Below are positions 41,922 to 46,963 of a stretch of DNA of 64,000 nt, in pieces. The notes under the pieces were generated by a model that saw only the letters and a list, made by a program, of their open reading frames with translations, did no database searches and was not told the DNA's origin. The stretch comes from Methanomicrobium antiquum. GTDB lineage: Archaea; Halobacteriota; Methanomicrobia; Methanomicrobiales; Methanomicrobiaceae. How positions within the stretch are numbered: the first letter of the stretch is position 1; the number at the start of each line of letters is the position of its first letter. The DNA lies in assembly GCF_029633915.1 (NCBI RefSeq), contig NZ_CP091092.1, positions 2,170,001 through 2,234,000 of the forward strand, read 5' to 3'. Made by a program: the position numbers and the translations under genes.

Positions 41922-42941
41922 TTAGGAACGCCTTCTAATAAGAGATACTACAAATAAAATTGAGAGCAGAGCAATGAAGATAAAATAACCACTTCCTAAA
42001 GCAGGTGTCTGTGATGTGGTTTTTAAGTCATCACCTTCATTTTCTGCAGTCGCTTCTGTTGCAGGCGGCATTGTCCGGAAAGGAGTGACTTCTGCCTCTT
42101 CCTGTGTCTCTGCCGGTTTCTCTGTCACTGCCTCTGCAAGTGTAAATTCGGCTGTATATTCAGCAGATCCGTCATCCTTAGAGATTTTAAAGATATAAAA
42201 ATCTGGTTTTAGATTTGATGTATCCACAGGAACTTCCCATGAATTTTCGTCACCGCCCGGTATGACTGTGACTGTTCCTGACTGGCCTGTAAACTCTGAT
42301 GATGTGGTCTTTGATGTCGGCTCAAAAGAGGCTGAATAAAGCTCATAAATTAATTTTTCACCATCGGCGATATTGGTCTGGCCTGATATCATAAGGTTGT
42401 CGCCGATGAAATAGGTCTCCTTTGGAGTAAACCTAATCCATGGTTCAGAGATGTAAAATTCAGTTGAGGTGTAGGTATCATCTATATCAGGTGATGTAAG
42501 CATCCTCATAAGTGCATTTGCAGCAGCGCTTCCCTGTAATTTTCCGGAGCCATCTATTATGAATGAATTTCCGGCCGATGAGACAACAGAGGTCTGACCT
42601 GTCTCAGGAGTATCATAAGATACGTCTGCGTCAAAGACGCCGTTGTACATAGGGTGCTGGACTATGCAGAAATACTGGCCTGATGCCATGTTCTGAGTTG
42701 TGCTTTTGGATATTTCATATGTGTATGTATTTCCGGTCACTGACTGCGTCTCGCGTGTCCAGTAATTAGGGCCAAATACCCAGAATGCAAGACCTTCCTG
42801 TGGACTTCCTGTAACCCCGCCTTTTATATAGACAATATCGCCTTTTGCAACATTGTCTGATGCACAGACTGTCTGTGAAAAAAGCATTAAAGATACAATA
42901 ACAGACAGCAGAACAATTTTTTTTATTAGATTTTTTTTCAT
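41922..42941 (-). CDS. DUF3821-type S-layer/surface protein with C-terminal anchor
   Basis: 339 residues. Signal peptide (LLSVIVSLMLFSQTVCA), DUF3821-like domain (GDIVYIKGGVTGSPQEGLAFWVFGPNYW ... GQYFCIVQHPMYNGVFD ... LMRMLTSPDIDDTY), a beta-sandwich (FTPKETYFIGDNLMISGQTNI), a Thr/Glu/Pro linker and the anchor GYFIFIALLSILFVVSLIRRRS. This domain is typical of Methanomicrobiales surface proteins. Outward-facing; likely part of or attached to the S-layer. Confidence 0.85.
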   Translation of the reverse strand: MKKNLIKKIVLLSVIVSLMLFSQTVCASDNVAKGDIVYIKGGVTGSPQEGLAFWVFGPNYWTRETQSVTGNTYTYEISKSTTQNMASGQYFCIVQHPMYNGVFDADVSYDTPETGQTSVVSSAGNSFIIDGSGKLQGSAAANALMRMLTSPDIDDTYTSTEFYISEPWIRFTPKETYFIGDNLMISGQTNIADGEKLIYELYSASFEPTSKTTSSEFTGQSGTVTVIPGGDENSWEVPVDTSNLKPDFYIFKISKDDGSAEYTAEFTLAEAVTEKPAETQEEAEVTPFRTMPPATEATAENEGDDLKTTSQTPALGSGYFIFIALLSILFVVSLIRRRS

Positions 42942-43109: not shown

Positions 43110-44840
43110 TCAGGATAATTCAGGCTTTTCGGAGGCTGATGAGACCATAGCAGATATCTCTCCTTTTGCATTTTTAAGGAATGTGTTGTGCCACACAACC
43201 TCTGCTTCTGTTCCGTCCTTTCTTAAAATCCGCCCCTTCTGGCCTGATTTAGGAATGCAATCACCGTTTATCGCCTGTTCAAAGCCGGTTTTAAGATCAG
43301 CTCTTAAACTCTGCGGAACAACGGTTGAGAACCAGTCTGCACCTAAAATTTCATCCTCCGTGTAGCCTAAAATGAAACAGCCTTTTTTATTGAGGCTTTC
43401 AATCATCCCGTCTTTGTTTACAACCGCAATCATAACGCCTGCAACGTCAAGATAGCTCTGGGACTGATCACGCTGTGCAATAATCTCCTCTTTTGCACGG
43501 TTCTGCTCGGTTACATCCTCTGCTATTGTCATAATGTATTCAAGCTTTTCATCAGGCCCTGATATCGGTACTTTTCTCACACTTAAATCCCTCCTTTCAC
43601 CTGAACCTGATTTTGCAGTTATCGGCGGCAGGAATGCAGGCTTTAGTGTTGACAAGACCTCTCTGTCTCCCGATACGAAATATTCTGTAATTTTATCCGG
43701 GAAAAGCTCACAGCCCATTTTTCCTATGCATATATTATTGTCCAAATCAAAAAATTCCTCCGCAGCTTTGTTAAAAAAGATATATGTTCCGAATTTGACC
43801 TCTTTTACAAGAACCATGGATGGAATGTTCTGAACGATTGAATTTAAAAAAGATTTCCATTTAAAGAGGCTTTTCATCGCATTATCCCTTACAGAGATAT
43901 CACGACATACAACCCTGTATCCTGTCAGGTCTCCAATATTATCAAATTTTGGACAGATACTCAGCTCAAGTTTTACCCGGCTTTCAGGACTGTTCTTTCT
44001 AATTAATGTGCATTCTGTAAGTTCAGCTGTTCTTTTTGTCTTTGCTTCTCTCATCGATTCCAAAAAATTCTCTGATGACACATCATCAAGATAATCAAGA
44101 AGAGAAAGGCCTATAAGCTCATCTGCCGGTTTTTTTATTATATCAGCACTTTTCGGGCTTGCGTAGAGAAAAACTCCTTTTGTATCGATATTCCATATTG
44201 CATCGTTTATCTCTTCTACAAGAGATCTGAAGTTATGCTCACTCTCTAAAAGTGCTTCTCTTGCACGGTGCTGTTCGGTTGTATCCTCAAGCATCAGAGT
44301 GATTCCAGGAGATGAGTCATTTAGTACAGTCGGGATTATTCTTATTCTGTAATAGCGCTCATCATCAATCCGGACAATTTTTATTTCATCAACTGTCTCT
44401 TCGCCTTCGAGTGCAACTCTTATCCTGTCATTTATTACCGGATGATCAAAACCTACAAGGGGGGAGTCTCTGAGCTCTTTTCCGATAATATCACTGCGCT
44501 CTACATTCAAAAGGCTACAGAGAGAATCGTTTACCTGAACAACTTTTAATTCATTGTCAATCACAGCAACCATATCAGATGAGAAGTTAAGCATCGCAGA
44601 TACCGGCGCACGCTGGGATATAAAGAAAACCTTGGCTTTTCCATAGGTTTTCATGTCAACCTGACCTGATATTCGGAGCATATCAAGATATCGTGATACA
44701 GTGTTTCTGTTTACGCCAATCTTTGCCGCAATGTCGGATACAGAGAGGCCGCGTGGGTTTTCCTTTAATGTGCTTAGAATTCCTGACAGTTCATCTGCGT
44801 AGTTGTCCATACTATACAGATTTAGGTTATTATGAAGCAT
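43110..44840 (-). CDS. HTH-PAS one-component regulator with multiple PAS domains
   Basis: 576 residues. N-terminal winged helix at 12-70 (GILSTLKENPRGLSVSDIAAKIGVNRNTVSRYLDMLRISGQV), then four PAS-like units: MLNFSSDMVAVIDNELKVVQVN; FRSLVEEINDAIWNIDTKGVFLYA; SIVQNIPSMVLVKEVKFGTYIFF; VAGVMIAVVNKDGMIESLNKKG. PAC tails such as LTGYRVVCRDIS and LEYIMTIAEDVTEQ link them. No kinase domain. DNA binding directly controlled by the PAS sensors. Start could instead be the ATG ten codons later. Target genes unknown. Confidence 0.85.
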   Translation of the reverse strand: MLHNNLNLYSMDNYADELSGILSTLKENPRGLSVSDIAAKIGVNRNTVSRYLDMLRISGQVDMKTYGKAKVFFISQRAPVSAMLNFSSDMVAVIDNELKVVQVNDSLCSLLNVERSDIIGKELRDSPLVGFDHPVINDRIRVALEGEETVDEIKIVRIDDERYYRIRIIPTVLNDSSPGITLMLEDTTEQHRAREALLESEHNFRSLVEEINDAIWNIDTKGVFLYASPKSADIIKKPADELIGLSLLDYLDDVSSENFLESMREAKTKRTAELTECTLIRKNSPESRVKLELSICPKFDNIGDLTGYRVVCRDISVRDNAMKSLFKWKSFLNSIVQNIPSMVLVKEVKFGTYIFFNKAAEEFFDLDNNICIGKMGCELFPDKITEYFVSGDREVLSTLKPAFLPPITAKSGSGERRDLSVRKVPISGPDEKLEYIMTIAEDVTEQNRAKEEIIAQRDQSQSYLDVAGVMIAVVNKDGMIESLNKKGCFILGYTEDEILGADWFSTVVPQSLRADLKTGFEQAINGDCIPKSGQKGRILRKDGTEAEVVWHNTFLKNAKGEISAMVSSASEKPELS

Positions 44841-44914
44841 TACTTATTGCTTTCGTTATTGCTCTGTTCAATGATTCTTTCAATGCAAGATTCAATGCAA
44901 GGCGTTAGACAGAA

Positions 44915-45289
44915 GATTTAAATATTGTTACCAACACATATTATTTGCAATACCAGACCTGATATTTAATGGCTCTGGGAAAAAACCTCTACGACCGTCT
45001 TTGGATTTATAAATTCAAAGACAAGATGAAGCCCGATTACCCCCCCAAGGGTCTTCATCCCGTCTGCTAATATCAGGCAGACGGATAATCTTAAATGCAG
45101 AAGTTGATTGCGCCTCCGAAACATCGTGATTTAAGGCACACATATTCCGTAACTCAAAACGAATTCAAAAAACATCCATAATTTCCTCCAGTAACCCGCA
45201 GAATGCAACACTACCATAAATGGGTTCATAAATGACAGTAAAGCTATACCTCTCTACTGTCTTATCAAAAAAAGGGATGTTTCGGAGGC
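44915..45289 (+). ncRNA. Candidate structured non-coding RNA (or folded mobile element)
   Basis: A TATA-like GATTTAAATATT (44915-44926) precedes a chain of perfect or near-perfect stems: CCAGACC/GGcTCTGG (44953-44978), GTCTTTG/CAAAGAC (44997-45022), GATGAAG/CTTCATC (45025-45059), CCGTCTGC/GCAGACGG (45060-45084), GACAGTA/TACTGTC (45234-45261). A 14 bp inverted pair GCCTCCGAAACATC (45112-45125) / GATGTTTCGGAGGC (45276-45289) encloses the last part. No ORF. A run of CCCCCCC sits in one loop. The 5' start ~25 bases after TATA fits a transcript. RNase P and SRP RNA motifs were not found. Confidence 0.4.
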
Positions 45290-45403
45290 ATATACCCCCT
45301 TATGTCAATAAAAGATACATAAATTGCTAAACCAGCAAAAATTGCAAAACCAATAAACAACACACGTATCTGATAAAACTGAAATTTCACCTTAAAAAAA
45401 ATA

Positions 45404-45452
45404 GTCAGGTTAGCACCACAAACCTGACCTTTCCCGGATTTTATCCGGTTTT
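45404..45452 (+). terminator. Two hairpins with T-run, possible terminator
   Basis: GTCAGGTT/AACCTGAC (45404-45411, 45421-45428) followed by CCGGAT-TTT-ATCCGG (45434-45448) and TTTT. It could end a rightward transcript from the folded region at 44950. Archaea mostly use T-runs, so the stems may have another purpose. Confidence 0.35.
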
Positions 45453-45485
45453 AACACTCCTTAAAATTTAAGCAAATTTTGGTTT

Positions 45486-45661: not shown

Positions 45662-46963
45662 TCAATTTTTTGTCTGAGTTATTTTTATTTTTTTCTGCTG
45701 AGTTTTTCCGGCTGAATAAAGAACAAAGCAGAATCCTGCAAATATGGCTGTGATAACTCCAAATCCACAAGATTTTTGTTCTCCTGCCGTGTCAGGAGAT
45801 GTTTTTATAATCATACACTCGTTTGTTATCTGATCTGTTCCTGAAATCAAAAGACCATTATCGGATGTTATCTGAAGGGATGAGATTCTTACATCTCCAT
45901 AATTTTTCGTCCAGAGTTTTGAGCCTTTATTATCAAGCCTTATTATCAGATATTCAGTTTTGTCAGTTATTTTATCATATCTGTCTGCAAGGAGATAGTA
46001 TCCGCCATCAACGGCGGCTTTTATATGGTAGATTACATCAGCTGTTGGTACACGAATTTTTGACAGTTCTTCCCCGTCATTTCCAATAATAAAAACAGAT
46101 GCCTGATATATGCTGTTATCTTCTGATAATGCAATCCGGTCTTCTTTTTCTTCCACAAGTGCAGCGGCATAATTGTTATTTTCAAGCGGAATTATCGAGA
46201 TTATCATGCCGGAGTCGTCAAAGCTGTACTGGGCAGACCAGATTATCTCTCCATTTTCATCGGTTTTCATCATAAAACTGCGGTAATTTTCAGTATAGAT
46301 TATCGGGTTTATGTATCCGCCGATTATAAAATTACCATCAGGTGTTTTTTGAACTGATGTCAGCCTGTACTGGCCGCCGCCTTTTGGAGTTCCCAATGTT
46401 TTATTCCAGAGTTCTTCTCCTTTTACACTTATCATTGTAAGAAAAGACTGGAAAAAATCACCGGTCATTAAGACATTGCCATTATCAGAAACCTCAATAG
46501 AGCTTATGACACCAACAGGCTGATGATATGTCCATTCAATGTTGCCCAAAAGATCTGTTTTTATAAGATTCTCACCATCTGTAAAAAGATACAAACCGCC
46601 GGTGGGGGATTCTTCAACAAATTTTATTGAACCATTCTCATCTCCGCCAGGAATACTTGTTTTTGATACAATATCGCCTGTATTTGAGATAAAAATAAGC
46701 TCCCTTCCTTTAACACCATGTCCGCCGGCGACATAACTTCCATCGGAAAGTTCCCATACAGAATTTATTTTTTCATCCCCTGAGAAGGACTTCATCCATT
46801 CATATGAAGGACCGTTCTGGTTGTCCGGAGACGCACAAAGGCCTGCAGGAATAAGCATACAAATGGCTGATAAAATCAAAACTGACAAAAAAATCCTCTT
46901 AAAGGCAGAATCCCCTAAAAAAGAATCTTTTAAGAATATTAGATCGAAATTTGCATATTTCAT
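45662..46963 (-). CDS. Secreted PQQ/beta-propeller-like surface protein with anchor
   Basis: 433 residues. Signal peptide near residues 20-45 (IFLSVLILSAICMLIPAGLCA), a long repeat region with motifs such as VWELSDGSYVAGGHG, VQKTPDGNFIIGGYI, QITSDNGLLISGTDQ and FMMKTDENGEIIWSAQY, typical of seven-bladed propellers, and a C-terminal helix (FGVITAIFAGFCFVLYSAGK) with Lys tail. Outward-facing surface protein of unknown partner. An alternative start nearer the signal peptide (for instance at KRIFLS) lacks an ATG, so the first ATG is kept. Confidence 0.75.
   Translation of the reverse strand: MKYANFDLIFLKDSFLGDSAFKRIFLSVLILSAICMLIPAGLCASPDNQNGPSYEWMKSFSGDEKINSVWELSDGSYVAGGHGVKGRELIFISNTGDIVSKTSIPGGDENGSIKFVEESPTGGLYLFTDGENLIKTDLLGNIEWTYHQPVGVISSIEVSDNGNVLMTGDFFQSFLTMISVKGEELWNKTLGTPKGGGQYRLTSVQKTPDGNFIIGGYINPIIYTENYRSFMMKTDENGEIIWSAQYSFDDSGMIISIIPLENNNYAAALVEEKEDRIALSEDNSIYQASVFIIGNDGEELSKIRVPTADVIYHIKAAVDGGYYLLADRYDKITDKTEYLIIRLDNKGSKLWTKNYGDVRISSLQITSDNGLLISGTDQITNECMIIKTSPDTAGEQKSCGFGVITAIFAGFCFVLYSAGKTQQKKIKITQTKN

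Follow-up and report, generated by a model that had tools for sequence, protein, structure and literature searches.

A conserved structured RNA gene beside an HTH-PAS gene in Methanomicrobiales, with predicted pairing to the mtd ribosome-binding site

Introduction

In their mode of action, the closest described counterparts of the locus reported here appear to be sRNA162 of Methanosarcina mazei and RNAIII of S. aureus. A single-stranded region of sRNA162 is reported to pair over a ribosome-binding site (RBS) and to affect the use of C1 substrates (PMC3510493). RNAIII is described as a large regulatory RNA, built of multiple helices, by which Shine-Dalgarno (SD) sequences are masked (PMC2837412). 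Two further kinds of RNA are relevant: M. mazei sRNA154, a conserved regulatory RNA tied to nitrogen fixation (PMC3600222), and the archaeal ribosomal-protein leader motifs, structured RNAs found computationally in groups that include Methanomicrobia (PMC7247131). According to the same review that covers sRNA154, the supply of H2 or formate often regulates the steps in which Mtd acts (PMC3600222), an observation that fits the two targets predicted below.

The locus described here resembles sRNA162 in being a methanogen RNA with a link to C1 metabolism and with RBS pairing, which is predicted in our case. It differs in the order in which it occurs and in its size and architecture (several hundred nucleotides and multi-helical), and we saw no Rfam or BLASTN link between the two. 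The mRNA reported to be masked by sRNA162 is that of a regulator, MM2441; the targets predicted here are instead an enzyme of the core pathway and a transporter. RNAIII is about 514 nt long, lies divergent from its regulatory genes and carries C-rich loops. Unlike RNAIII, which is bacterial and made by quorum sensing, the present RNA adjoins a PAS-HTH gene, and no peptide ORF is evident in it; no Rfam match to RNAIII was obtained in any locus scanned, the two have no sequence relation, and the resemblance is functional only. The likeness to sRNA154 is that of a conserved methanogen RNA with a metabolic role, the differences being nitrogen fixation and another archaeal group. The ribosomal-protein motifs are cis-acting leaders, whereas the gene downstream of the present RNA lies on the opposite strand. 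A literature search in one open library brought up no account of this RNA.

In sediments, digesters and ruminants, Methanomicrobiales rank among the principal methanogens that consume hydrogen and formate. If the pairing proposed below is correct, the RNA would offer a direct RNA handle on methane formation, conserved in four families, and would give archaea, across a whole order, an equivalent of RNAIII-like regulators. With one island and one or two targets, this is a sharp prediction.

Results and discussion

A free-standing structured RNA gene

We analysed a 64,000-nt stretch of the Methanomicrobium antiquum genome (the window), in which the RNA gene is placed at 44945–45465 on the plus strand. 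Both ends are predicted, the start ~22–25 nt past the TATA box and the end at the AACACUCCUU element. On one side lies a divergent gene (43110–44840, minus strand) whose 576-aa product, presumably a regulator, combines a winged HTH at its N terminus with PAS domains. The neighbour on the 3' side (45662–46963) is on the minus strand in this genome, an arrangement that does not fit a cis-acting leader or riboswitch. The RNA gene has its own promoter and 3'-end signals (a TATA box with an operator, and a T-rich 3' element), all conserved, and occurs once in its genome, where the next match spans 27 nt (E 0.1).

The preferred proposal of the first-pass annotation, a long, structured, plus-strand non-coding RNA, is supported by the homologues in related methanogens and the compensatory stem changes that it had asked for, and by a conserved promoter. 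At least five short stems, including two terminal hairpins, are present in both sequence and fold, and the raised GC content that it had pointed out was recovered (0.395–0.415 across 44900–45300 vs 0.235–0.30 in the next gap). Its description of the stretch as free of ORFs is true for gene-sized ORFs only, since small ORFs occur on both strands, the longest being 71 aa at 44693–44908 (plus strand) and 52 aa at 44966–45124 (minus strand). The gene appears to extend slightly past the 3' end first noted, and the promoter repeat starts at 44894. All things considered, the stretch is almost certainly a real, free-standing structured RNA gene that had not been catalogued before.

Rfam release 15 gave no match at the gathering score in the window or in 20 homologous loci, and sub-threshold hits to rli52, mir-5595 and ceN80 (best E 0.72) were taken as chance. 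No tRNA or tmRNA was found in the window. A coding reading was rejected, as the longest plus-strand ATG ORFs match those of shuffled sequences (mean 24.9 vs 25.2 aa over 61 loci; 35.1 aa on the minus strand). Separately, the minus strand at 45265–45390 of the window, antisense to the RNA gene, carries a GTG-initiated ORF for a hydrophobic 41-aa peptide.

From its 5' end, the plus-strand RNA is predicted to begin with hairpin H1 (CCAGA...TCTGG, 44953–44978), whose stem sequence differs between genera and whose equivalent in family f3 covaries. Conserved island 1 (44985–44992) lies inside AACCTCTAC and precedes a hairpin whose sequence is not conserved (GTCTTTGGATTT...CAAAGAC, 44997–45022) and two hairpins of a variable region (GATGAAGCCC...GGGTCTTCATC, 45025–45059; CCGTCTGC...GCAGACGG, 45060–45084). 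A long-range helix then closes a domain that holds islands 2–4; its 5' arm (45112–45125) and 3' arm (45276–45289), first noted as a 14-bp pairing, are indeed 100% complementary. Within this domain, island 2 (TTCCGTAACTC, 45145–45155) reads CCATAACTC in relatives and ATCACCTAACTC in f3, and island 3 (AACATCCATAATTTCCTCCA, 45171–45190) is complementary to a generic SD plus AUG. The main island (CTATACCTCTC, 45244–45254), an 11-nt perfect complement of the mtd RBS of the same genome, occupies the loop of a GACAGTA/TACTGTC hairpin (45234–45261). The 3' part carries conserved islands ACACACGTA (45360–45368) and ATTTCACC (45384–45391), a 3' hairpin (GTCAGGTT/AACCTGAC, 45404–45428), a last hairpin (CCGGAT/ATCCGG, 45434–45448) followed by TTTT, and the 3' element AACACTCCTT (45453–45462), the presumed end of the RNA, which reads AACACTCCTTTT in several relatives.

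Homologous loci across the order

BLASTN of the locus against 60 relatives gave full-length-like matches in two congeneric genomes only (G001 and G004); two other hits were short and marginal. A scan of genome contigs matched one relative, G004 (Methanomicrobiaceae archaeon MAG). The divergent HTH-PAS protein was then used as a landmark to locate homologues of the RNA. A match to the protein is present in 27 of 28 genomes of the family and 98 of 149 genomes of the order, which we take, in part from one named relative, to be Methanomicrobiales. Upstream DNA was read for 63 regions (25 in family f1, 19 in f4, nine in f3, nine in f6 and one in f5), and the same kind of locus lies next to the HTH-PAS gene in 62 of them, in four families of one archaeal order; the exception (G081, f5) has a weak protein match. 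A viral collection gave no match to the main-island pattern, and two of its contigs match 18 nt of island 3.

Conserved islands resemble the anti-Shine-Dalgarno sequence

The helices vary and short islands are kept: AACCUCUACAA, CCAUAACUC, ACCUCUC, ACACACGUACC, AUUUCACC and AACACUCCUU. ACCTCTC is the most shared 7-mer over the four families, exact in 53 of 61 RNAs and missing in eight, including those of G005, G018 and G047, whose mtd leaders keep TGAGAGG. A[C/U]ACCUCUC, the island kept best, is similar to the anti-SD of 16S rRNA, for which we assumed the tail AUCACCUCCU in this genome. Anti-SD 6-mers exceed shuffled expectation from 2-fold (f1, f4) to about 5-fold (f3), with per-RNA mean z of 1.2–1.7. 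The main island has a predicted unpaired fraction of 0.89 in f1, 0.87 in f6, 0.58 in f4 and 0.59 in f3, and the accessibility of anti-SD 5-mers is about equal to that of other G-free 5-mers.

A search with the TAGAGAGGTATAGC pattern at two mismatches returned fewer hits than its backward control, so there is no general enrichment of such sites; the mtd site emerged from this hit list and was then tested independently. Island 3 is identical over 19 nt in G000 (the genome of the window), G001 and G004, and the 19-nt pattern matched no mRNA start of its own genome at up to three mismatches. Its use as a key to targets was rejected: hits at membrane-protein gene starts in G002, G003 and G005 were set aside because the RNAs of these genomes lack the exact island. 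Apart from this, an SD plus AUG resembling the island 3 complement is found at related membrane-protein genes, by eye presumably DUF4013-like, in G002 and G003, where they lie in tandem, and in G000 (L244, ~7583, minus strand).

The main island is complementary to the mtd ribosome-binding site

We propose, at a probability of roughly 0.65, that the RNA is a trans-acting sRNA that masks the RBS of mtd and, in some lineages, of fdhC. Transcription would run rightward from the TATA promoter under the AATGC-N3-GCATT repeat, probably controlled by the divergently encoded HTH-PAS sensor, and the RNA would fold into variable helices, including the long-range helix, that leave pyrimidine-rich conserved islands unpaired or in loops. 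A[C/U]ACCUCUC would then pair with the SD region of the mRNA of mtd (F420-dependent methylene-H4MPT dehydrogenase); in family f4, the same island would pair even better with the SD region of the formate transporter mRNA. Such pairing would mask ribosome binding and lower translation. Because the best-kept unpaired segment of a conserved RNA matches the RBSs of mtd and of a formate-uptake gene, the RNA probably tunes methane production.

The site complementary to the main island in the same genome is the RBS of mtd (NCBIfam equivalog PRK00994). TGAGAGG is present in the mtd leaders of all 30 RNA-bearing genomes, from four families, vs 0 of 23 from f2 and f5. The 30 leaders follow the pattern ...[UUCUCA]...UGAGAGGU..., and neither GAGAGG nor UUCUCA occurs in any of the 23 f2/f5 mtd leaders. 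The longest perfect run between an RNA and the mtd leader of its own genome is at least 9 nt in 25 of 30 genomes, vs 9% of f2/f5 leaders and 4.2% of shuffles. The base after GAGAGGU in mtd matches the base before ACCUCUC in the RNA in 23 of the 27 island-bearing genomes (8 A-U and 15 G-C), the mismatches being U-C in G010, G020 and G021 and G-A in G062; this flanking-base switch probably reflects few independent events. These counts are per genome, irrespective of phylogeny, and both the contrast of 30 with 0 and the A/U–G/C switch may each amount to one or two evolutionary events. Genome-wide, TTGAGAGGTRT-N2-9-TGG occurs at 34 sites in 30 genomes, of which 20 are mtd, six are the RNA gene itself and eight lie elsewhere.

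We also ranked gene starts by their best contiguous helix with the RNA (accessibility filter 0.5), using ORF starts in sampled stretches, sets that include spurious ORFs. In these scans mtd ranked 1/483 in its own genome, 1/363 in G007, 5/606 in G039 and 9/273 in G016; in G030 mtd went unscored, its ORF having been assigned a start further upstream. The top start in G030 was that of a formate/nitrite-family transporter (1/486; −29.3 vs −22.2 for the next), with a 15-nt perfect match. These ranks bear on the possibility, in our judgement an unlikely one, that other mRNAs or the ribosome are the real targets and that the mtd and transporter matches arise from general SD/anti-SD similarity. The 2- to 5-fold excess of anti-SD 6-mers in all families means that any SD pairs somewhat with the RNA. 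GAGG-type SDs match any anti-SD-like segment to a degree. Other gene starts of the same genome score close behind mtd, which is 4th of 483 by plain longest run, and co-folding does not single out mtd: the gain for the whole RNA in G000 is −7.6 kcal/mol with mtd vs −11.7 and −7.9 with two f5 leaders, the own mtd is likewise not preferred over f5 leaders in G007 and G064, and RNAduplex energies in several genomes fail to tell own leaders from those of f2/f5. General SD affinity does not account, however, for matches that exceed the SD core in most genomes and are nearly specific genome-wide, for first rank in three of five start scans (mtd in its own genome and in G007, the transporter in G030), or for the distinct mtd leader of the two families that lack the regulator.

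The formate transporter and other candidate targets

Among 30 formate transporter leaders, 16 pair with the RNA over at least 9 nt (6% of shuffles), and in all seven f4 genomes with a transporter gene the leader pairs over 10–14 nt. In G030, CUCUGAA in the RNA faces UUCAGAG in the mRNA, vs CUCUAAA and UUUAGAG in f4 relatives (e.g. G045 and G064); the A-to-G change in the G030 RNA is thus met by a U-to-C change in the mRNA, which is, as read from the two sequences, a compensatory change. The RNAs of four further f4 genomes (G080, G146, G068 and G119) carry CUCUGAA or CUCUAGAA, and if the pairing is real, the matching fdhC leaders are predicted to read UUCAGAG or UUCUAGAG. Among the pairs co-folded, only fdhC of G064 stands out (−22.0). 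In the genome of the window, the formate transporter leader pairs over no more than 7 nt, and in no island.

A small hairpin in the mtd leader itself occludes part of the SD. This element, GUUCUCA-N(3-9)-UGAGAG (G000:C1:622363–622382 in the genome of the window), is strongly conserved in four families and different in two, and may itself have a regulatory role. It opens the way to a different role for the RNA, less likely than general SD pairing: that of a sponge whose islands CUCUCAA, AACUCAA and ACACACGUACC mimic mtd and titrate a protein that also recognises UUCUCAA, the 5' arm of the mtd hairpin. UUCUCA, in the same sense as CUCUCAA of the RNA, is intact in 27 of the 30 mtd leaders of RNA-bearing genomes vs 0 of 23 others, several islands are repeated along the RNA, and the islands are no more accessible than other G-free segments, all of which would suit a sponge. 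Mimicry does not, however, explain perfect antisense matches of 14–15 nt. The base that follows GAGAGGU and covaries is not part of the mtd hairpin, and in the formate transporter leader the antisense sequence is present with no predicted hairpin (−0.7 kcal/mol).

Three other observations concern candidate partners of the RNA. The f4 formate transporter leaders share a conserved sequence, GGTATAGGTAGGACGTTTAGAGAGGTGT, upstream of the start, of which one part precedes the SD. In G007, the mcrG RBS (L291:17285–18049, minus strand) has a 12-nt match, start codon included, to the UUUCAUUUCACC island of the RNA and ranks second of 363 ORF starts, a match observed in one genome. TTGAGAGGTATTCATG is found at the start of a 263-aa ATPase gene, by eye presumably MinD/ParA-like, in G010 and G021, which belong to one genus; this gene is a possible further target.

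Promoter, operator and the divergent HTH-PAS gene

The TATA-like site reported by the first-pass annotation is TTTAAATA at 44917–44924 (plus strand), conserved in relatives. Just 5' of it lies the inverted repeat AATGCAAGGCGTT (44894–44906; AATGC-N3-GC[AG][TA]T), a presumed operator. Scored as AATGC-N3-GC[AG]TT or GCAAT with at least 9 of 10 positions, the operator precedes a TATA-like box at a near-fixed distance in all 61 RNA loci scored. The combined operator and TATA pattern has exactly one site in the 2.44-Mb genome of the window, at the RNA locus. Over 149 genomes, it has 90 distinct sites. Of the 95 genomes with tallied protein coordinates, 68 have a single such site in the divergent region; 11 more sites fall elsewhere in tallied genomes, and 11 in eight genomes outside the tally.

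The divergent protein has Pfam domains PAS_4/PAS/PAS_9 and HTH_IclR. The protein may be the binder of the repeat, and regulation of the RNA gene by its HTH-PAS neighbour is plausible. A broader scheme, which we advance tentatively and hold to be somewhat less probable than not, is an order-wide sensor-RNA switch in which a PAS factor would set transcription of the divergent RNA, and the RNA in turn translation of core CO2-reduction and formate-uptake genes (mtd, the formate transporter and perhaps mcrG), which would move methanogens from one electron donor to another; the several anti-SD-like islands would be retuned lineage by lineage to the preferred target.

Translated matches to the HTH-PAS protein were flagged with in-frame stops in G001 (TGA, TAG), G004 (TAA) and G005 (TGA); the ORF lists of G001 and G004 nonetheless show long open frames, and the stops may sit at match ends. 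Adjoining the HTH-PAS gene in the window is a gene for a 339-aa protein (41922–42941, minus strand), and a similar gene follows the HTH-PAS gene in G007, G013 and G016. The 339-aa protein matches the C-terminal part of the S-layer glycoprotein model NF041431, below the cut-off.

Folding and covariation

The plus strand of 44935–45455 folds to −128.3 kcal/mol vs a shuffled mean of −88.2 (z −7.1; 0 of 100 shuffles). The minus strand of the region also folds well (z −5.1), so that the strand is not fixed by folding alone. Across 61 loci (40 shuffles each), z is below −2 for the plus strand in 48 and for the minus strand in 28, and the plus strand has the lower z in 47. RNAalifold covariation is above every shuffle in both f3 (nine RNAs; 0.256 vs 0.168, 0/500) and f4 (14 RNAs; 0.145 vs 0.114, 0/500) and far above slid controls, with the qualification that the structures come from the same alignments as were scored and that kinship of the sequences inflates covariation scores.

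These results weigh on the reading, very improbable in our estimate, that the locus is a DNA element only, its islands serving as protein-binding sites in the HTH-PAS regulatory region and the RNA being unmade or functionless. In its favour are the inverted repeat next to the TATA box, the position ahead of a gene for a transcription factor, and the better-than-shuffled folding of both strands, but the conservation runs ~250–500 bp past the promoter, with covarying helices, a fold that favours the plus strand in most of the loci and a conserved T-rich element at the 3' end.

An equivalent of the 14-bp long-range helix is present, with wholly different sequences, in all 12 near genomes tested, from four genera, and its position is constant, with one arm between islands 1 and 2 and the other past the main island. 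The probability of such a helix by chance is 0/300 in eight of these genomes, at most 0.01 in three and 0.13 in G002. The suggestion that the perfect 14-nt inverted arms, 150 nt apart, bound a MITE or other mobile element is thereby left with next to no probability, since the locus has a single copy in its genome, which excludes a MITE, and the sequences of the two arms vary in concert while their place in the locus stays fixed.
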